DNA from: Thiorhodovibrio winogradskyi
GTDB taxonomy: Bacteria > Pseudomonadota > Gammaproteobacteria > Chromatiales > Chromatiaceae
Direction of reading: 5' to 3'
DNA: 64,000 nucleotides
Assembly: GCF_036208045.1 (NCBI RefSeq)
Contig: NZ_CP121472.1
Coordinates: 1-64,000 of the forward strand
Position numbers and translations under genes: made by a program. Shown here piece after piece: positions 47,049 to 64,000 of this stretch (position 1 is its first letter; every line of letters starts with the position of its first letter). The notes under the pieces are model-generated. The model was not told the origin of the DNA. It saw only the letters and a list, made by a program, of their open reading frames with translations, and searched no databases.

Positions 47049-48616
<1,568 letters not shown>

Positions 48617-55060: not shown

Positions 55061-55120
55061 CAAGTCTCGCCCAGTCTCGCCCAGTCTCGCTTAGTCTCGC
55101 TTAGTCTCGCCCAGTCTCAT
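55061..55120. repeat. 10-bp tandem repeat (six units)
   Basis: Six decamers of the form (CC/TT)AGTCTCGC run head to tail; the first and last are slightly altered. The array spans the stop codon of the minus-strand antiporter-like gene (55117-55119) and the convergent intergenic region. Slippage could alter the 3' end of that gene or its termination. Confidence 0.9.
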
Positions 55121-56946
55121 GGATACGACAGCAGCAAGGCCGCGAGTCCCCCGGCCAGGGCAAGCAACAGCATGGCAAGCTGGCGGCGCAGCCAGCCCTC
55201 GGCACGAATCAGCTGATCGAGCGCGGCTAGCATGGCTTGCTCACGCGCGACCCAGAAGGTCACCCAGGCCGCTTGCATGTTGGCCAGCGCCTGGGCCGTC
55301 CAGCGGCCAGCGCGCAGCAGACCGCGCGCGCACCAGGCCAGGGGCCACCAGAGATCGCCCGCCGGCAGCCAACGGCTTAACTGAAGCGCGATCTGGGGGG
55401 CAAAGCGGCAGAGGCTCCAGCCCAGCACCAGGGACAACAGCAGGCCCAGCGCCAGGGGCCACAGCAGAGCGGGCAGGGCTGTGAGTGGCGGCAAGTCGGG
55501 CGCGACCGCGTGCCAACCAATCCACAGCGGCAGGCTGAGTCCGGCCAGCACGCAGATCAGCCAGGCAAGTGGCATGGCGGCGGGCGGATTCCGCCGCGGC
55601 TCCTGGCGCTCCTGCCATTGGAGCCACAGTGTCCGTGCCATCAGCGCCGTCGTCCCCACTGCCGCCAGGCCCGACCAGAACAGCAGCCTCTTGTCACCCG
55701 CGCTATCGAGCGCGGATTTGTACGCCCATTTCGCCACCAGCCCGGAACCCAGGGCACCGGCCAGGGAGAGCGCCGGTAGCGCCATCAGCGTCCACAGCAG
55801 CCAGCTCGGCCAGGGCGGTGGCCGCCGGCTGATCTCGACTCCGAGAAAGAGCGCGCCCTTGTTCAAGCCATGATGGGCGGTGAACAGGATCACCGCCGCG
55901 CTAAGCATCGGCCAGTGTTGTGGCTGCAACAGCCCGAGGGACACCAGCACCGCCAGCAGGCCCATCTGGCTGACACTGGAGTAGGCTAGCACCGTCTTGG
56001 GCTGGCGCTGCACCACGCCGACCAAGGCGGCGGCGAAGGCCCCGGCCAGACCGGCGCCGAGCATCGCCAGCCCCAGTCCGCGAAAGGCCGGATCGGCGGT
56101 GGTGAGCCCCAGCGGCAAGGTGCTCAACCAGCCGACCAGACCGGCCTTGATCATGGCGCCGCTCAGCACCGCGCTGGCCGGCGTCGGGGCGACCGGATGG
56201 GCCAATGGCAGCCAAGTGTGCAGGCCGATGACCCCGGCCTTGACGCCAAAGCCGAGCCACAGCAACAGCCCGATCCAGACCCCCGACTCGGCCCGCGCCA
56301 ATGTCAGGCGCAACTCGGTCAGTGTGATCGCCAGACTGTTGCCATGGCCGCTGCCGGCGCCCCACAGCAGACCGGCCAGAATCAGGGCCTCGCCCACTAG
56401 CGCCATGATCAGATAGGCGAAACCACCACGGCGCGCCACGCGACTGCCATTGTGGATCACCAGCGGATAGGCCGCGAAGGTCATGAGCGCGAAGCCCAGG
56501 TAGAAGCTGGCGATATCCTCGGCCACCAGCAGCAGCAGATTGCCGCACAGGGTCAGTGGCCAGAAGGCGCCAAAGCGCAGCAGCCGCGCGCGACTGGTCG
56601 CATCGCCGGCGCGTGCCTGTTGCTGCTCGGCGCGCAAATAACCCCGCGCGTACCAGGCGGCCAGCGCCCACAGCAAGGCGGTCAAGGCCAGCAACAGGCG
56701 GCGTTGCCCATCCAGTTCCCAGCGTCCGCCCGTCAGCCAGGCATCGAGCCGCAAACCGCCGTCGGCGCCGAAGACAACCAGCGCGAGCGCCGGCCAGGCC
56801 GCGGTGAGCCATGGCCAATCGAGCTGTTGAAGTTTCCAACGCCCAACGTCGACCAACAGCGGCCGCAGTCCCAGCAGCAGCGGCCACAAGAGCGTGATCA
56901 GCAACAAGGGCGCCAGCGGCAGGGAGGCGAGCGGCAAGCTGGTCAT
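55117..56946 (-). CDS. Mrp/complex I antiporter-like subunit (NuoL/MnhD-type), third copy in cluster
   Basis: The 609-residue protein is a multi-spanning (about 14-16 helices) proton-conducting membrane subunit. It keeps the broken-helix lysine segment WLGFGVKAGVIGLHTWLPLAH and the proton-channel segments SGAMIKAGLVGW and SQMGLLAVLVSLGLLQ. The glutamate expected in helix 5 (FELM-type) is replaced: the segment reads FYLGFALMTFAAYPLV. Residues 470-609 form an additional helical C-terminal part. The ATG at 56946 overlaps the stop of the upstream gene (ATGA). It is the last gene of a four-gene cluster. Confidence 0.85.
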   Translation of the reverse strand: MTSLPLASLPLAPLLLITLLWPLLLGLRPLLVDVGRWKLQQLDWPWLTAAWPALALVVFGADGGLRLDAWLTGGRWELDGQRRLLLALTALLWALAAWYARGYLRAEQQQARAGDATSRARLLRFGAFWPLTLCGNLLLLVAEDIASFYLGFALMTFAAYPLVIHNGSRVARRGGFAYLIMALVGEALILAGLLWGAGSGHGNSLAITLTELRLTLARAESGVWIGLLLWLGFGVKAGVIGLHTWLPLAHPVAPTPASAVLSGAMIKAGLVGWLSTLPLGLTTADPAFRGLGLAMLGAGLAGAFAAALVGVVQRQPKTVLAYSSVSQMGLLAVLVSLGLLQPQHWPMLSAAVILFTAHHGLNKGALFLGVEISRRPPPWPSWLLWTLMALPALSLAGALGSGLVAKWAYKSALDSAGDKRLLFWSGLAAVGTTALMARTLWLQWQERQEPRRNPPAAMPLAWLICVLAGLSLPLWIGWHAVAPDLPPLTALPALLWPLALGLLLSLVLGWSLCRFAPQIALQLSRWLPAGDLWWPLAWCARGLLRAGRWTAQALANMQAAWVTFWVAREQAMLAALDQLIRAEGWLRRQLAMLLLALAGGLAALLLSYP

Positions 56947-58454
56947 GGCAGCAGATACTCCTGTCGGACCACCAGGGTCGCCCATTGCAACGGGCTGAAG
57001 GGCAAGCCCGCCAGCATCCCGGCCATGAGGCTGAGCAGCGCCGTGGCCAGTGCCGGTAGCAGCAGCCAGGCACTGGTTTCCAGTCCTCCGGGCTTGCGCT
57101 CGCCGGGCCAGTCGCCCAGGCCCCGCGCGGGACCGGGGCGGAACCACAGCCGATGGAGAATGGGCAGAAAATAGGCCATGTTCAGCAGGGTGCTGGTGAC
57201 CAGCACCGCGATCACCCAGGGCTTGCCGGCCTGCACCGCCCCCAGACCCAGCAGCCATTTGCTGATGAAGCCTACCACCGGCGGCAGGCCGATCATCCCC
57301 AGTGCGCCCAGGGTGAAGGCCAGGCTGCTCAGTGGCATGCGCCGGCCGACGCCGTCGAGTTCATCGATGCGGTGAATGCCCAGTTCCTCGGCATAATTGC
57401 CGGCGCAGAAAAACAGCGTGACCTTCATCAGCCCCTGGTGAATGAGATGCGCCAGCGCGGCGATGGTGCCCAGTGGCCCGAACAGGCCGATGCCGAGCAC
57501 AATATAGGACACCTGACTGACGGTGGAAAACGCCAGGCGCGGCTTGAGTTCCTGTTGCGTCAAGGCGCGCACCGAGCCATAGACAATGGTGACCGAGGCG
57601 ATGACCACCAGACCATCGAGCACCCCGAGCGACTGGGCGAAGCCGATACCGTACACATCATAGACCAAGCGCACAATGCCAAAGGCCCCCGCCTTGACCA
57701 CGGCCACCGCGTGCAGCAGGGCGCTGACCGGCGCCGGCGCGACCATGGCGCGCGGCAGCCAGCCATGCAGCGGCACCAGCGCCGCCTTGACGCCAAAACC
57801 AAGAATCAGCAGCCAAAACAGGCCAATGAGCAGCGGGCGTTTGGCCGGATCCAGGCCGGAGAGCAGGGTCCGCTCCCCAAAACGCCAGTCCCCGCCCAGC
57901 ACCTGCAGGGCCACCATGCCGAGCAGCAGCGCCAGGCCAGCACTCAGTGTGTAACGCAGATAGACGCTCGCCGCCGCCAGGGCCTGTGGTGTGCCGCGAT
58001 GAGCCACCAGGGGATAGGTGGAGACGGTCAGCAGCTCATAGAAAATCAGCAGGGTAAAGAGATTCCCGGCCAGGCTCACGCCCATGGTGCTGGCGACGCA
58101 CAGACTGAAAAACCCAAAAAAGCGCCGGCGATTGGGCGAACCTTCCAGATAGCCGATGGCATAAATGGTGGTGAACAGCCACAGCAGCGATGACAGCCCG
58201 GCGAAGGCGAGACCAAGCTTGTCAACCTGCAACACAAAGCTCAGACCATCAACGACGGGAAAGGACAGTCCGTAGTGCTGTCCGGCGGTCAAACCCAACG
58301 CCATCCAGGCGACCAGGACGATTTTCACTACCGCCGCGGCCAGATTCAGCAGGGTGCGCGTGCGCACCGCCTGCTCGGGCAGCAGGAAGATCAGCACCGC
58401 CGTCATTAGCGAGCTGCCCAGGGTGGCGAGGGGGAGCAGGGCGGTGGCGGTCAT
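56943..58454 (-). CDS. Mrp/complex I antiporter-like subunit (MnhD/NuoM-type), second copy
   Basis: The 503-residue, 14-helix protein carries the full proton-translocation motif set: glutamate in IFYELLTVSTYPLVAH (helix 5), the lysine in GFGVKAALVPLHGWLPRAM (helix 7) and VSALLHAVAVVKAGAFG, and the helix-12 region HQGLMKVTLFFCAGNYAEEL. It therefore looks active in ion translocation. The start ATG 58454 overlaps the previous stop by 4 bp, and the longer open frame to 58709 is not needed. H+ or Na+ specificity cannot be told. Confidence 0.9.
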   Translation of the reverse strand: MTATALLPLATLGSSLMTAVLIFLLPEQAVRTRTLLNLAAAVVKIVLVAWMALGLTAGQHYGLSFPVVDGLSFVLQVDKLGLAFAGLSSLLWLFTTIYAIGYLEGSPNRRRFFGFFSLCVASTMGVSLAGNLFTLLIFYELLTVSTYPLVAHRGTPQALAAASVYLRYTLSAGLALLLGMVALQVLGGDWRFGERTLLSGLDPAKRPLLIGLFWLLILGFGVKAALVPLHGWLPRAMVAPAPVSALLHAVAVVKAGAFGIVRLVYDVYGIGFAQSLGVLDGLVVIASVTIVYGSVRALTQQELKPRLAFSTVSQVSYIVLGIGLFGPLGTIAALAHLIHQGLMKVTLFFCAGNYAEELGIHRIDELDGVGRRMPLSSLAFTLGALGMIGLPPVVGFISKWLLGLGAVQAGKPWVIAVLVTSTLLNMAYFLPILHRLWFRPGPARGLGDWPGERKPGGLETSAWLLLPALATALLSLMAGMLAGLPFSPLQWATLVVRQEYLLP

Positions 58455-59896
58455 GGCAGCGCGCTCAGTCGCACCAGGGCGAGCGGCAACTCCGCCGCCA
58501 GGCCCAGCGCAATGGCCGCGAGCGCCAGCGCCAGGGCGATCAGCTCCATGCCAAGTGGCAAGGCGCGAAAGGGGGTGGCGGGCGCATCCTCGACAAAGGA
58601 GCAGCGCAACACCCGAAACACATAGGTGGCGCTCAGTAGGGTGCCCAGGGCCAACACCAGCGCCCAGATCCACTGGCCGGAGGCGAAGGAGGCCTGCAAC
58701 AGCAACCACTTGGCGGTAAAGCCAGCGCTTGGCGGCAGTCCGATCAGGGTCAGGGCCGCGAGTCCGAAGGTCAGCAGCGACAGCGGCAATCGCCGGCTGG
58801 TTCCGGTCAGTCCCTCAAGCCGCGTCGCCCCAGTGGAGAGCAGCAGGTTGCCGGCGGCCATGAACATGGCCGCTTTCGCCAGCGCATGCCCGGCCAGTTG
58901 CAGCCAGGTTGCTTGCCAGACCAGGGTCGCGACCCCCTCGCCGGCACCGGCCAGCAGGGGAAAGGCCAGCATCAGGTAACCCAACTGGCCGACCGTGGAC
59001 CAGGCCACCACCTGCTTGAGCCCGGCCGCGCGCCAGGCTTGCACCCCGCCCCAGAGCACAGCCAGACTGCCCAGGGCACCGAGCGCCCAGGCGCCGACCA
59101 CGACATCGGGTAACAGCAGCCGCCAGAGCAGCAGCAGGATGAAAAAAGACACCTTGACCACCAGCGCGCCATGCACCGCGCTCACGGGCGTCCAGGCGCT
59201 GCCATGCACCGGCGCGAGCCAGGCGTGCAGGGGAAAAATCGCCGCTTTCAGCAGTAGGCCACTGCTCAGCAGCGCCATGGCGATGCGGGTGACGGTGTTC
59301 GGCTCGGCCACGGCGGCCAGTCCGGCCAGATCAAGCCGCCCCCAGGCTCCCAACAGCAAGGCGATGCCCAACAGCCAGGCGAGCGAGCCAACCAGCGCAT
59401 AGAGCAAATAACGCAGGCTGGCCATGAGTGCGTCGACCTTGCCCGGCAGCAGCATCAGGCCCACCGCGCAGAGTCCCATCAACTCCAAACCCAGGTAGAG
59501 CAGCACCAGATCGGCCGCCAGCCAAATCAGCCCCAGCCCTAGGGCGAGACCACCGAGCAGCGGCCACAACCAGGCGCCCGAGCGCGGCGGAAGACCGCTC
59601 ACACGCGCGTTGCCCACCGCATGGACGGCGCTGCCGAGCAACAGCACCTGCGTCAGCAGCCACAGGAGCGCGGTCAAGCCATTGAGTCGCCAGTGCAGCT
59701 CCAGCCCACCCAGGGTCAGGCAGCCCGCCATGGGTTCGCTCGCGCTGGCCAGGACCAGCCACAAGGCCACCAGCGGCAAGGGCAAGCCGAACAGCAGGAG
59801 CCAGAACTCCCGGCGCGGCGGGCGCCAGCCGGCCAGCAACCCAAGGGCCGGCGGCGCGAACAGCAGCCACAGCAAATGATAGGGCGTCGCGTTCAC
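58451..59896 (-). CDS. Mrp/complex I antiporter-like subunit (MnhD/NuoN-type), first copy
   Basis: The 481-residue membrane protein has about 14 helices, the helix-5 glutamate in LGLELMGLCAVGLML, the lysine in LLLKAAIFPLHAWLAPVHG and SAVHGALVVKVSFFILL, and a helix-12 equivalent GHALAKAAMFMAAGNLLL. It belongs to the Proton_antipo_M family. It overlaps both neighbours by 4 bp. Three such subunits in a row, without NuoH/NuoB/C/D/E/F/G/I or MrpE/F/G, make a minimal antiporter-type membrane arm. Confidence 0.88.
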   Translation of the reverse strand: MNATPYHLLWLLFAPPALGLLAGWRPPRREFWLLLFGLPLPLVALWLVLASASEPMAGCLTLGGLELHWRLNGLTALLWLLTQVLLLGSAVHAVGNARVSGLPPRSGAWLWPLLGGLALGLGLIWLAADLVLLYLGLELMGLCAVGLMLLPGKVDALMASLRYLLYALVGSLAWLLGIALLLGAWGRLDLAGLAAVAEPNTVTRIAMALLSSGLLLKAAIFPLHAWLAPVHGSAWTPVSAVHGALVVKVSFFILLLLWRLLLPDVVVGAWALGALGSLAVLWGGVQAWRAAGLKQVVAWSTVGQLGYLMLAFPLLAGAGEGVATLVWQATWLQLAGHALAKAAMFMAAGNLLLSTGATRLEGLTGTSRRLPLSLLTFGLAALTLIGLPPSAGFTAKWLLLQASFASGQWIWALVLALGTLLSATYVFRVLRCSFVEDAPATPFRALPLGMELIALALALAAIALGLAAELPLALVRLSALP

Positions 59897-60564
59897 GCGG
59901 AGGCTTTGGGGGGCGTCATCAGACTGACCTGGCCGGTGAGCGCATGCAGGCGCAGTAGCACAGCGGCGCCCAGCACCGAGCCGAGCAGGCCGACGGTCAG
60001 CCCAATCAGAATCAGCGCCCGCACCTCGGCTCTGGGTACGGCGACACTAGCAAGCAACAGAAACACCCCGGAGCCGATCAGATTAAAGGCCAGCAAGAGG
60101 CGCAACAGATGGCGTTGCGCGGCGAAGGCCCAAAGCCCTAAGCTCATCACCAGCAAGCCGGTGAGCGCGAACAGGGTATCGACCGACAGCGGATGCATGC
60201 GCGCATCAAGACCCTGCAGCTGGCCGATCGCCAGGCTGGTCAGGCCCAGCCAGGTCAGGGTCATCAGCCAGCGCAGGTGCGCGGTCAAGCGTCGTCGGCG
60301 CGGCGTCCTATCCAGCGGCGCCAGTCGCGGTCGCTTACCTCGTCCGCGCAGCGTCCAAAGCAGCGTGCCGCCGGTGAGACCGGCGCCCAATACGGCCTCG
60401 GCCAGCGCCAGCCAAGGCTCGCCAAGCATGAGCCAGATGAGCGCCATAACCATGGCAAAGGCGATGAACACCCAGCAGGCGCGAAACAGATCGCGATCCA
60501 TAAGGCAGGCAGCGGCCAGCAGGATCAGCGCTCCCACCAGGACCCAGACGGTGATGGAGACCAT
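59893..60564 (-). CDS. Fused MbhD-like (DUF4040) and NuoK/MnhC-like membrane subunit
   Basis: The 223-residue protein has two parts. The N-terminal part (about 1-72, FRACWVFIAFAMVMALIWLM and EPWLALAEAVLGAGLTGGTLL) resembles MbhD/DUF4040 and MrpB-type subunits. The C-terminal part (about 100-215, LFALTGLLVMSLGLWAFAAQ and LIGSGVFLLL) resembles MnhC/NuoK with three helices and the acidic or small residues of that family only partly kept. A basic linker (RGRGKRPR, TPRRRR) joins them. It is first in the cluster and overlaps the next gene by 4 bp. The fusion call is from hydrophobic pattern and family memory. Confidence 0.7.
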   Translation of the reverse strand: MVSITVWVLVGALILLAAACLMDRDLFRACWVFIAFAMVMALIWLMLGEPWLALAEAVLGAGLTGGTLLWTLRGRGKRPRLAPLDRTPRRRRLTAHLRWLMTLTWLGLTSLAIGQLQGLDARMHPLSVDTLFALTGLLVMSLGLWAFAAQRHLLRLLLAFNLIGSGVFLLLASVAVPRAEVRALILIGLTVGLLGSVLGAAVLLRLHALTGQVSLMTPPKASA

Positions 60565-61043: not shown

Positions 61044-61982
61044 TCAAAAGGTGCTGATGCCCACCTCGTAGAGTCCGCCCACCACCACATATTCATCCTC
61101 GCCCTTGAGCATGCCGGGCAGCAGGCGGTTGTAGAAGAAGATCTTGGCCAGCGGCACCTGGGTTTCCAGAATATAGTCGCCGAACTCATCGGCGCGCTCG
61201 CGCTCGCTGGTAAAGCTGTTTAGGTTGTTCAGCAACACCTGGTAGCGCTGTCCGGGATGGGTGGCGAGCACTTCATGCTCATCAATGCGGTTGATGCCGC
61301 GATAGAGCCTCAGGTGCGACTGGCCGGGATGGGCCAGCTCCAGCTCGTATTGGCAATAGGTGTAGAGCAGATCGAGCTGAGCCTCGAGCGCGTTGGTGGC
61401 ATAGAGTCCGCGACTGCCCTGCACCAGATAGGCGTGGTAGGCGTCGCTGTCGCGCCCATCGAGGGGCCCGCCGTGGTGGCGCGCCAGTAGCCCAAAGCGC
61501 GTCTCCACCCAATGCTTGAGCACCGCGCCTTCGCGCCCGTCGGAGTCAAACGACCAGCCGCGCACCATGCGCAGATAATTGGCGTTGCAGCGATACTTTT
61601 TGCGCGGCCCGGGGGTGAAGCCCGCCTCCTCGAGGTCCTCCAGGCAGAAATGCACCGTCATGTAATCGACAAAATAAGCCGAGCGCTCGTCACGGCGGCT
61701 AAGCGGTGCCAGGGTCGCGAACAGAGCCTGGTGAAAATTCCGCACTCCGTCGAGCTGCAAAGGCACCGGGTGCTGCTGGTAGGTCAGCCCGCCGAGAATG
61801 TCCGCCGGCAAATTGCAACGGTTGATTGGCAAACGGGCGGAAGCCGGCAAACGCGGAGCAGCGCTCAGGGTGGGATCGGGCGGGGTCGCATCCTCGGTCA
61901 AGAGCAGGGGTTCTCCAGAGTGCAACAAAAACCGGAGATCATAACGGGTTTTTGTCTCCCGGTCGGCGAAAACCCTGGTCAA
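61044..61982 (-). CDS. draT: NAD+--dinitrogen-reductase ADP-ribosyltransferase DraT
   Basis: DraT ADP-ribosylates an arginine of nitrogenase reductase NifH and switches off nitrogen fixation in response to ammonium or darkness. The 312-residue product has the family N-terminal block LPINRCNLPADILGG, TYQQHPVPLQLDGVRNFH, and the ADP-ribosyltransferase motifs: R228 in RLYRGIN, NSFTS at 255-259, and the E-X-E pair E295/E297 in GEDEYVV. The first 50 residues are extra compared with the family and are coded partly inside pabB (44-bp overlap). draG and nif genes are not in the window. Its presence implies a diazotroph. Confidence 0.93.
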   Translation of the reverse strand: MTRVFADRETKTRYDLRFLLHSGEPLLLTEDATPPDPTLSAAPRLPASARLPINRCNLPADILGGLTYQQHPVPLQLDGVRNFHQALFATLAPLSRRDERSAYFVDYMTVHFCLEDLEEAGFTPGPRKKYRCNANYLRMVRGWSFDSDGREGAVLKHWVETRFGLLARHHGGPLDGRDSDAYHAYLVQGSRGLYATNALEAQLDLLYTYCQYELELAHPGQSHLRLYRGINRIDEHEVLATHPGQRYQVLLNNLNSFTSERERADEFGDYILETQVPLAKIFFYNRLLPGMLKGEDEYVVVGGLYEVGISTF

Positions 61983-63846
61983 GAGAGGGCGCCGTCACGA
62001 CCCGGCAGGGCATCATGCCGCGCACCGAGTTAATCGCCCAGACCGAGGTCGCGCGCCCAAGATCAGCCAGCCTCAGGCGGCGTTCGCTGATGCGGCCGGC
62101 AGCGAGCAACTCCGCGCGGTAGCAGCCGGGCAGCAGGCCGGCGGAGACGGGTGGGGTGTAGCAAGCTCCGTCCAACTGAAGGACGATGTTGGTGAAGCTG
62201 CCCTCGGTCAGTTCATGGCGCTCGTTGAACAGGAAAATCTCTTCACCGCTACCTGGAAATCCCCCGGCGGCCAGTTGGTAGGCCCGGCGATCCGTGGTCT
62301 TGTGGCGCAGCAGGACATCGTGCGAGTCAATGGGCCGGTCCGCCAGGCGCACCCGCAGCGGTGTCGGCATCGGGCGCTCTTGCAGTGCGCTGGCGGAGAC
62401 CGAGACCGCGCCGGTCGCGGATAAAACCAGCCTCAGGATGTGGGCCTCCTCGGGCCTTGCGCGCCGGCTGGCCTCAATGGCCGCCTTCAGGTGCTGCAAG
62501 ATGAGCGCCTGGTCGCGGGGAAAGCCAAACACCCGCGCGCTCGCGCGCAGCCGTCGCAGATGCCGCTGTTGCAGAAACACCTGGCCATCCGGCTGGAGCA
62601 GCATGGTTTCCAGCAACCCGAAGCGGGGCGCGGTATCGGCAAGCAGGCTCGCTTTCAGTCGCAGCTCGGCCAGTTCCCGATCCACCTGGCTGTCCCAGAC
62701 GATGCCGCCACCGCTGCCATATTCGGCCATGCCAGAGCGGCGATGAACCACCAGGGTGCGGATCAGGACGCTCCAAAAGGCGCGTCCGGATTCCAACCGG
62801 GTGCCAATGGTACCGGTGTAGAAGCCACGCGGAGAGGCTTCCAGTTCGGCAATGATGGCCGTGGCCGCCACCTTGGGCGCGCCCGTGATGGAGGCCGCTG
62901 GAAAGAGCGCGGCCAAAGCCGCATCCTCGCTGGCGTCGGTTTCGGCGGTAACCTCGCTGATCATCTGATGCACCGTGGGATAGTGCTCGAGCGCGAACAG
63001 CCTCGGCACCCGCACCTGTCCGATGCGCGCGATCCGCCCGAGGTCGTTGCGCACCATATCGACGATCATGCGATTCTCGGCGCGTTCTTTCTCGCACGCG
63101 TGCAGGCGTCGCGCGGCGTCCCGGTCGGCTGCCTCGGTCTCGCCACGCGCGGCGGTGCCCTTCATCGGGCGGCAGCAGAGCCGATGGTGATCGCGCTCGA
63201 AAAAGGTCTCTGGGCTCAAGGAGAGCAGGGCAAAATCGCCGGTGTCGATGAAGGCTGCATGAGGGCAGCGATGCCGTGCGACGAGCCGCAGAAAAAGCCG
63301 GCGTAGCCCGGCGTGGCTCGGCGGCTCCAGCAGGCGCGCGCGATAGCGCTGGGTCAGATTGATCTGGTAGGCATTTCCAGCGGCCAGATGCGTCTTGACC
63401 GCGGCGAAGGCGCGGGCATAGTCCTGCTCGCTCATCTCAGGTTGCCAGGGGCCGAATAGCGGCTCGCGCGTCTCGGCATTGCCATCGCCATCGCCATCGG
63501 AGTCGTACTCAGCCAAGAGCGCGTCACCTTCGACAAGCGTCAGAGTCTGAAAACCGGCCATCCATAGCAGAGGCTGGGACGGGTTCTGTTGGCCGCGCAG
63601 AGAGGAATCAAAGGCGGTGCCGGCTTCATACGCCAAGCAGCAGAGACTTGCCGGGGTGTCGGTATGTGCGAGTCCTTCGGCCAGCAACGGGCGGACCTCG
63701 TCGGGCGCATTCGTGCGCAAAACCCAGGCTGGATCCCGCAGCTGCAGCCAAGCCGCGCAAGCGGGATCATGGATCAGTGCGGAAGCCGGCCGGGGATCAG
63801 GCGGGAAATCGGACTGGGGCAGTGCGACTAGCAAAGTTTGGTCCAT
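61939..63846 (-). CDS. pabB: Aminodeoxychorismate synthase component I fused to 4-amino-4-deoxychorismate lyase
   Basis: The N-terminal two thirds (about 1-400) form a chorismate-binding enzyme of the PabB type, with MSEQDYARAFAAVKTHLAAG, CRPMKGTAARG, ITGAPKVAA and YGSGGGIVWDS. The C-terminal part (about 410-635) is a fold-IV PLP protein of the PabC type, with the PLP lysine in LLRHKTTDRRAY and ELTEGSFTNIVLQ. Together they would convert chorismate to 4-aminobenzoate for folate, given an amidotransferase PabA elsewhere. The ATG at 63846 fits the family; the frame is open to 63993. The 3' end overlaps draT by 44 bp on the same strand. Confidence 0.92.
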   Translation of the reverse strand: MDQTLLVALPQSDFPPDPRPASALIHDPACAAWLQLRDPAWVLRTNAPDEVRPLLAEGLAHTDTPASLCCLAYEAGTAFDSSLRGQQNPSQPLLWMAGFQTLTLVEGDALLAEYDSDGDGDGNAETREPLFGPWQPEMSEQDYARAFAAVKTHLAAGNAYQINLTQRYRARLLEPPSHAGLRRLFLRLVARHRCPHAAFIDTGDFALLSLSPETFFERDHHRLCCRPMKGTAARGETEAADRDAARRLHACEKERAENRMIVDMVRNDLGRIARIGQVRVPRLFALEHYPTVHQMISEVTAETDASEDAALAALFPAASITGAPKVAATAIIAELEASPRGFYTGTIGTRLESGRAFWSVLIRTLVVHRRSGMAEYGSGGGIVWDSQVDRELAELRLKASLLADTAPRFGLLETMLLQPDGQVFLQQRHLRRLRASARVFGFPRDQALILQHLKAAIEASRRARPEEAHILRLVLSATGAVSVSASALQERPMPTPLRVRLADRPIDSHDVLLRHKTTDRRAYQLAAGGFPGSGEEIFLFNERHELTEGSFTNIVLQLDGACYTPPVSAGLLPGCYRAELLAAGRISERRLRLADLGRATSVWAINSVRGMMPCRVVTAPSLDQGFRRPGDKNPL

Positions 63847-64000
63847 TGAACGAATGTTGCGACAATCCCGCGATGAGACAATCAGGATTCTTGAATAACT
63901 CGTGACCTTGAACCGTCCATCATCCCATGACAACCCATCAATCCCTATCCCCTCAATTTGAAGGATGCCGGTACCAAAGCACTCTGCTTTCATGCCGCAT
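63847..64000. other. Gene-free window end
   Basis: The 154 bp upstream of pabB show no gene or strong motif. They probably contain the pabB promoter. The window ends here. Confidence 0.4.

Follow-up and report, generated by a model that had tools for sequence, protein, structure and literature searches.

What could a complex-I/Mrp-like membrane arm of only four subunits accomplish if its genes stand apart from those of any redox enzyme? This question is raised by a compact operon in the first 64,000 nucleotides of contig NZ_CP121472.1 from Thiorhodovibrio winogradskyi (assembly GCF_036208045.1), a stretch that we refer to as the window. The window has a GC content of 59.0%, opens with a dnaA-like gene (named from its sequence) and is part of a single contig of 5,478,625 bases; for Thiorhodovibrio, single circular chromosomes of 5.41-5.47 Mb with dnaA as first gene, a GC content of 60.2-61.4% and draGT genes have been reported (PMC10609205). 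The operon extends from position 60564 to 55117 on the minus strand and encodes, in this order, the proteins F, O3, O2 and O1. A preliminary description had noted four genes overlapping by 4 bp each, which is correct for all three junctions (F/O3, O3/O2 and O2/O1, with the overlap words GTGA, ATGA and ATGA), and had proposed a new ion-translocating module that might be paired with an unknown partner. In our reading, the unit is best seen as a reduced, patchily distributed derivative of a longer Mrp-type cluster, and we consider it to be, with a probability of about 0.48, a self-contained secondary transporter that is driven by the proton-motive force and that would not need a redox enzyme.

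The assignment of the four proteins is based on sequence profiles and structure predictions. Pfam detects Proton_antipo_M in O1, O2 and O3 (with E-values of 2e-28, 2e-54 and 7e-42) and additionally Proton_antipo_N in O2, and together with NCBIfam it places all three in the Proton_antipo_M superfamily. Among the 25 NCBIfam rows listed for each of these proteins none reaches its cut-off, the best match among those listed being PRK07234.1-1 for O2 with 423 bits compared to a cut-off of 718. Protein F matches MbhD (3e-9) and, with 24.8 bits just below the cut-off of 26.1, Oxidored_q2/NuoK (2e-5), which agrees with the three Proton_antipo_M proteins and the fused MbhD/NuoK-like subunit recognized in the preliminary description. 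The MbhD part of F, which is NuoJ-like, covers residues ~4-73 and is followed by a linker helix (~92-117) and a NuoK/MrpC-like part (~128-212), the latter with a further weak match to MbhG (6cfw_G, E-value 0.005). An AlphaFold2 model of F built from 27 sequences (mean pLDDT 85) contains helices at 4-22, 26-46, 50-73, 92-117, 128-149, 153-174 and 179-212. In Foldseek, this model retrieved nothing at E≤0.001; among the 272 matches at E≤10, the top two by E-value are unrelated (ZnT1 and PnuC), and MbsD/MbhD (probability 1.00) and NuoK (0.98) follow below as weak matches with E-values of 0.3-0.9. Profile alignments with PDB entries give MbhD/MbsD and MbhG as the nearest homologues of F with a solved structure, and MbhH as the best match for the profiles of O1 and O2. 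The AlphaFold2 model of O1 (mean pLDDT 83) resembles MrpD, NuoL and MrpA in Foldseek and is predicted, with low confidence in this part, to end in a long C-terminal helix (534-607).

Table 1. Genes of the four-gene unit in the window, with the evidence for their assignment.
Feature	Position	Strand	Length and evidence
F: fused MbhD–NuoK/MrpC-like subunit	59893..60564	-	223 aa; Pfam, PDB profile alignments, AlphaFold2
O3: antiporter-like, long-cluster D1 group	58451..59896	-	481 aa; Pfam, BLAST, tree, residues
O2: antiporter-like, long-cluster D2 group	56943..58454	-	503 aa; Pfam, BLAST, tree, residues
O1: antiporter-like, long-cluster D3/D4 group	55117..56946	-	609 aa; Pfam, BLAST, tree, residues, AlphaFold2

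To place the unit, we used the fused F protein as search marker in genomes drawn from the class, the order, the phylum and the family of genome G365, which includes Halomonas. The marker is found in 2 of 369 genomes of the class draw, in 3 of 398 of the phylum draw and in 9 of 210 genomes of the order (source genome included, plus a partial match in G423). In the G365 family, 104 of 275 genomes carry it; 107 rows matched there, with G1083, G1084 and G1088 excluded as carrying the two halves separately, and for G1047, G1048, G1169 and G1211 the match is fragmented. The other two genomes of the source genus display separate MbhD and NuoK matches only. Among 72,556 plasmid records, the sole match is in Halomonas sp. 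PA16-9, whose protein is 84.7% identical to that of G365 and provides a named anchor for this family. From 30 fetched neighbourhoods, 27 hold the four-gene unit, two (L193 and L194) are long clusters and one (L130 of G423, fetched for its partial F match) contains no cluster, with nothing found at E≤1e-10, and was excluded from every count. The window and the 27 other neighbourhoods thus constitute 28 loci of the short unit, here termed mini loci, and many salt-loving relatives contain the operon.

We regard the unit as a real, conserved module and not a product of chance because the same gene order recurs in these 27 other neighbourhoods. Within the mini loci, 81 of 84 internal junctions are readable as 4-bp overlaps by a script that preferred this overlap whenever a start codon in frame was available for it; the exceptions are found in L126 (a gap), L178 (8 bp) and L175, a locus with 229 N where O1 is cut by an N run and was therefore left out of trees and residue readings. 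Compared to four relatives, the genes show dN/dS values of 0.11-0.45 at a pS of 0.47-0.69, which is hence near saturation, and the unit is, as judged from these ratios, kept by purifying selection.

The relationship to longer clusters is evident already within the source genome, where 14 matches to PF00361 are distributed over the Nuo set (3), an Mrp set (2), a Hyp-adjacent pair (2), the present unit (3) and a long cluster (4). The long cluster (L009, ~1405-1415.5 kb) encodes MNHE, MrpF, MnhG, MbhD, MbhE/MnhB, MrpC and the antiporter-like proteins D1, D2, D3 and D4, with its MbhE scoring below the Pfam cut-off. BLAST comparisons with this cluster are collinear, with identities of 44% for O3 and D1, 61% for O2 and D2 and 41-42% for O1 and D4/D3. 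In the two long neighbourhoods, Pfam finds MNHE, MrpF and MnhG, followed in L193 (from the G365 family) by one open reading frame (ORF) with MbhD, a weak MbhE and MnhB and then MrpC, and in L194 by MbhD and MbhE/MnhB; both are full E-F-G-MbhD-MbhE/MnhB-C-D1-D2-D3 clusters. In 48 named long loci (L044-L091), several of which are cut by contig ends, tblastn matched MrpE in 45, MrpF in 44, MrpG in 46 and MnhB in 48 cases, compared to 0 of 28 mini loci for each of the four queries. In a FastTree phylogeny of 202 antiporter-like rows, from which seven long D3/D4 rows below 150 bits had been dropped, the mini O1 (27), O2 (28) and O3 (28) sequences each fall on one side of a branch (support 99, 99 and 100) and join the long D3/D4, D2 and D1 proteins, respectively, with a support of 100 each. 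Such a classification of subunits by phylogeny had been recommended in the preliminary description. In the same tree, the paraphyly of long D1 and of long D3/D4 with respect to the mini copies is required by well-supported branches.

Because each large subunit falls in the family of the same genome's longer Mrp-type cluster, the unit looks like a reduced derivative of Mrp-type systems rather than an unplaced one. In the simplest reading of these sequences, a single reduction would have led to the loss of E/F/G, MbhE and MnhB and to the fusion of MbhD with MrpC. The alternative that the unit is an ancestral minimal module is disfavoured by the nesting in the FastTree phylogeny, and for the idea that the linker helix of F might derive from MbhE/MnhB there was no signal, with no similarity found between the helix and that part of three long clusters. 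The proposal of a new module stands as far as the unit is defined and conserved, but not in the sense of a system without known relatives: it is a distinct reduced architecture inside a known superfamily. A homologous cluster already characterized as a complete transporter, which the preliminary description had named as the finding that would speak against novelty, was not recognized among the papers that were listed by searches of the open-licence PMC literature. In a quick IQ-TREE phylogeny of the joined O3, O2 and O1 sequences, the nine Chromatiaceae-type copies form one clade (100) within the Halomonas-type copies, with support values of 100, 99 and 95 for the nodes that place them there and with long outgroup branches; because the Chromatiaceae clade sits inside the Halomonas-type copies, it was probably acquired from the Halomonas side.

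The long clusters vary in composition. Among L044-L091, D1, D2 and D3/D4 are found in Marinobacter and Halospina, and several Rhizobiales and Contendobacter loci contain D1 and D3/D4 with no match to D2. D4 of the long cluster in the source genome (L009:6006-8612, minus strand, ~1405.0-1407.6 kb) carries a C-terminal peptidoglycan-binding domain (PF01471, residues 802-855), which is an odd combination. Elsewhere in this genome (L010:7396-11090, plus strand, ~1311-1315 kb), HypC, HypD and HypE-like (AIR-synthase-type) genes adjoin a pair of genes with divergent Proton_antipo_M domains (scores of 55 and 64 bits), the second of which has arginine in the lysine columns of transmembrane helices (TM) 7 and 8.

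The residues expected to carry protons were read from an alignment that included NuoL/M/N and HyfB/D/F of E. coli along with the Nuo and Mrp proteins of the source genome. O3 contains E138 (TM5), K217 (TM7), K248 (TM8) and K396 (TM12), and O2 contains E140 (TM5), K223, H248, K254 and K399. The pattern Glu-Lys-Lys-Lys at TM5, TM7, TM8 and TM12 is found in all 60 O2 and O3 rows (from the 28 mini and two long loci each), where readings in TM8 are less safe since this column is shifted for NuoN (read here as Ile, but as K247 in a separate alignment). In O1, K236, K267 and K406 are retained, A153 occupies the position of the TM5 glutamate and E186 is located in TM6. The TM5 position, which is Glu in all references, holds Ala (or Ile, Val or Ser) in this protein, and none of the 57 readable rows of the O1/D3/D4 group, of which 27 are mini and 30 long, has the glutamate; the seven long D3/D4 rows dropped initially, when read later, contain Ala or Gly, which brings the total to 64 of 64. 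The same 64 rows all hold a glutamate in TM6 at the site of NuoL D178, which is neutral in D1, D2, O2, O3 and all references but NuoL. In O1-type subunits, the acid near the TM7 lysine is thus in TM6 and not in TM5. No D3/D4 row read from the long clusters L044-L091 contains a TM5 glutamate.

In F, E56 is invariant (27/27 rows) and aligns with MbhD E69, a residue that has been termed the homologue of MrpA E706 (PMC7419157). The MbhG ligands named in the same paper, N34, D37 and H41, align with F N161, G164 and F168, which are all invariant (27/27). At the columns of E. coli NuoK E36 and E72, where both NuoK references have Glu, all 27 rows of F have Asn and Gly. The loss of these cation ligands was considered as a mark of a proton-only system and rejected, since the C subunits of three long clusters bearing E/F/G (the one of the source genome, L193 and L194) share the same Asn-Gly-Phe pattern, which is therefore a family trait and not a consequence of the loss of E/F/G.

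How could such a unit work? We propose that F, O3, O2 and O1 assemble in this order into a single linear arm in the membrane. O1 would be at the distal end, and its long C-terminal helix would run back along the other subunits in the manner of HL in NuoL and MrpA. O3, O2 and O1 would each contain a proton wire consisting of lysines in TM7, TM8 and TM12. Because O1 lacks the TM5 glutamate and its TM7 lysine could only pair with the glutamate in TM6, this subunit would have its ion pair in a permissive, 'open' configuration of the kind suggested for DabB2. In that protein, Ile151 replaces the TM5 glutamate while Lys235 and Asp185 are retained, which the authors suggest holds the 'open' state; the mutation I151E halves the growth yield (PMC13144422). 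In the case of Mrp, the proposed cation path includes MrpE/G/F, E706a, H37c/H40c and E137d (PMC7419157). With the MrpE/F/G/B part of this route gone, F E56 and the TM5 glutamate of its neighbour would be the ionisable residues that remain at the coupling site. Protons would cross the O subunits either in exchange for a monovalent cation at a cavity between F E56 and O3 E138, or as a means of proton entry in pH homeostasis. As reported for related proteins, isolated Nqo13 and Nqo12 conduct protons, and the ion-pair mutations E123Q and E132Q, respectively, raise this conduction (PMC11496545). The coupling to protons is the more secure half of our proposal, and the identity of a counter-ion is a guess. 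In its most pointed form, the unit would be a naturally dissected proton-only arm of the complex I/Mrp superfamily that has lost both the redox engine and the E/F/G/B module and retains a proton conductor with three channels, in which one subunit is always 'open'. We consider this notion rather doubtful; the work step of such an arm may involve gating, a direct counter-ion or an unlinked partner.

Several observations weigh against our proposal. The MrpABCD subcomplex of Bacillus devoid of EFG was reported not to be catalytically active, and either of the mutations MrpA-E140A and MrpD-E137A abolishes antiport by Bacillus Mrp (PMC5703873). By analogy, these results argue against cation exchange by an arm that is without EFG and in which one subunit is devoid of the TM5 glutamate. 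The inactivity of the published subcomplex weighs most heavily against plain cation exchange, and is the reason for which we commit to no particular counter-ion and give weight to a model with a partner, which may be encoded elsewhere, unlinked to the operon. Furthermore, the subunit order F-O3-O2-O1 is assumed by analogy, and the transport of protons or cations by this arm is what we infer from residues and from experiments on relatives. The loss of the TM5 glutamate and of the C-subunit ligands is also encountered in long clusters that keep E/F/G, and neither is therefore a special adaptation of the mini unit. Finally, in the tree the well-supported branches do not force the mini O2 proteins to nest in long D2, and FastTree is subject to a long-branch warning.

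In agreement with the preliminary description, there is no MrpE/F/G, NuoH, hydrogenase or dehydrogenase subunit among the four flanking proteins of the window scanned with Pfam, and tblastn with MrpE, F, G and MnhB as queries gave no match between positions 48001 and 64000; its distinction of the unit from both a classical Mrp antiporter and complex I also holds, with E/F/G, MnhB, NuoH and the NuoK glutamates missing. Pfam found no hydrogenase subunit among 17 flanking proteins from nine loci, with 4 of these proteins matching no family. The suggestion of a linked partner, to be sought in relatives beyond the window, found no support. In an unfiltered comparison of ORFs from the 28 mini and two long neighbourhoods, where ORF picking may miss genes in GC-rich DNA, no gene recurs beside both Chromatiaceae and Halomonas-type copies in the 28 mini neighbourhoods except for scattered common domains, and the recurrent neighbours are one-sided, with one set in Halomonas-type loci and another common to up to four Chromatiaceae loci. 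Across the two sides, a LysR regulator in L128 resembles, at ~30% identity, ORFs that occur in 11 of the 19 Halomonas-type loci. A GGDEF protein encoded in L122 and L126 is matched by one ORF of L183, and L191 and L192 contain matches to an unnamed ORF of L123; the flanks of the window contain no such match. Pfam identified a CitMHS/TrkA-C permease, a carboxylesterase, BrkB and PIN-PhoH as Halomonas-type neighbours, and betaine genes were assigned by a look at their sequence only.

Known partners in the wider genome were also considered. DabA (PF10070) has no match in the source genome and is found above cut-off in 16 of 104 carriers of the unit in the G365 family, compared to 35 of 171 non-carriers; it was rejected as partner, being absent from the source genome and showing no association in the 275 genomes. 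In the same family, 5 of 104 carriers as opposed to 82 of 171 non-carriers have a complex-I-type NuoH, for which scores from 378 bits upwards and the broken copy of G1137 were counted. This contrast (Fisher 1e-15) ignores phylogeny, includes some incomplete genomes and lies in large part between genera; 11 further carriers contain a weaker PF00146 homologue. With complex-I-type NuoH missing in 99 of 104 carriers, complex I was rejected as partner for most of them. These gene contents show that the module is independent of complex I, but not that it replaces complex I. Genome G365 itself contains neither complex-I-type NuoH nor DabA, and six listed of its 8 PF00361 matches are O2, O3 and four proteins beside its two MrpF genes. 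H. elongata is described to be without NDH-1 and to use NQR and NDH-2 (PMC9006882). MrpF was found somewhere in 12 of 12 genomes tested, but both MrpF genes of G000 and of G365 adjoin other Mrp-type clusters, with no spare copy.

These results bear differently on the alternatives. The unit could be a proton-driven coupling arm that powers a cytoplasmic or membrane enzyme encoded elsewhere, akin to DabB-DabA or a reversed complex I, with O1 as the distal subunit that would face the partner. Complex I and DAB, the known kinds lacking the Mrp cation module, both have enzyme partners, and the retention of the operon under purifying selection would suit such a role, as would the DabB2-like ion-pair arrangement of O1 (PMC13144422); the lack of a shared neighbour besides scattered common domains, the distribution of DabA and the absence of complex-I-type NuoH from most carriers make us consider it unlikely. 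As a hybrid Mrp antiporter, the unit would instead recruit MrpE/F/G and MrpB in trans and carry out ordinary Na+/H+ or K+/H+ exchange. The presence of MrpF in all genomes tested, the retention of F E56 and of the TM5 glutamates in O2 and O3, and the Asn-Gly-Phe pattern shared with the C subunits of three E/F/G-bearing clusters are consistent with this view, which is yet distinctly improbable given that no MrpF gene of the two genomes is spare and that the contact layer of MbhE/MnhB is missing.

An arm without counter-ion might also act as a regulated proton channel or uncoupler that lowers an excess of proton-motive force or acidifies the cytoplasm at high pH. The absence of the E/F/G/B part of the cation route and of the TM5 glutamate gate in O1 would fit, as does the increased proton conduction of Nqo12 and Nqo13 upon mutation of glutamate to glutamine (PMC11496545), but the TM5 glutamate and TM7 lysine kept in 60 of 60 O2 and O3 rows would be superfluous for a simple leak, and an unregulated leak would be costly, so that we regard this explanation as very improbable. 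That the unit is a functionless, decaying remnant of a long Mrp cluster, as its reduced size and patchy distribution might suggest, is hardly credible: apart from L175, where O1 is interrupted by the N run, all loci (27 of 28) contain the four genes uninterrupted and in the same order, the charged residues are invariant and the dN/dS is low.

The surroundings of the unit differ between its carriers. In the window, a gene for a dinitrogenase reductase ADP-ribosyltransferase (DRAT, 61044-61982) is located ~480 bp upstream of the operon, and no homologue of it was found beside the other 27 copies. Its start is overlapped by a single ORF (61939-63993) that combines chorismate-binding (PabB-like) and class IV aminotransferase domains. 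In the Halomonas-type loci (L121 and L175-L192), a convergent gene of the PIN-PhoH type is found downstream in 19 of 19 and a permease of the CitMHS/TrkA-C type upstream in 16 of 19 cases, with domains checked in L121.

There is an ongoing dispute over the way in which long-range events are coupled to the movement of protons in complex I and Mrp. A natural unit that has the proton channels, lacks the redox engine as well as E/F/G/B and is found in many Halomonas-type bacteria would allow the arm to be studied alone and would clarify the role of MrpE/F/G and MnhB. The O1 type, with its replaced TM5 glutamate and its glutamate in TM6, allows the model of ion-pair gating to be tested directly on a natural protein. 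A proton-only arm, if true, would constitute a new class of proton-driven machine.

Compared to known systems, the unit is closest to the long Mrp (CPA3) clusters, for which we use the label 'group 3 type' and which contain homologues of O1-O3 and of both halves of F; in 'Ca. Nitrospira alkalitolerans', an Mrp locus described as group 3 includes two additional NuoM/NuoL-like genes (PMC7784846). In contrast to these clusters, the mini unit is devoid of MrpE, F, G and MnhB, no MbhE was found in it, and its MbhD is fused to the MrpC-like part. It shares with Mrp two core subunits with TM5 glutamate and TM7 lysine (O2 and O3) and the MrpC-like half of F, but differs by a third core subunit without TM5 glutamate and by the MrpA C-terminal domain (MbhD and MbhE), of which only MbhD is found, in F. 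Its resemblance to the Pyrococcus complexes MBH and MBS is manifested in MbhD/MbsD and MbhG as nearest solved relatives of F and in MbhH as best match for O1 and O2, whereas the hydrogenase, the sulfane reductase and the MbhA-C-like (MrpE-G) subunits of these complexes have no counterpart. As in the arm of complex I (NuoJ, K, L, M and N), there are one J-like, one K-like and three antiporter-like components, one of the latter with a NuoL-like C-terminal helix; yet NuoA/H and the peripheral arm are absent, the NuoK glutamates are Asn and Gly in F, the sequences group with those of Mrp-type clusters, and the unit mostly occurs where complex I does not. DabB2 of the carbon concentrator DAB2 resembles O1 in its lack of a TM5 glutamate, its acid in TM6 and its lysine in TM7 (PMC13144422), although DAB combines one antiporter-like subunit with DabA and the present unit has four subunits and no DabA. 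The engineered modules Nqo12 and Nqo13, finally, are single subunits that in their wild-type form contain the TM5 glutamate, but with their conduction of protons in isolation from the rest of complex I (PMC11496545), they represent a system for which the operon may be the natural analogue.

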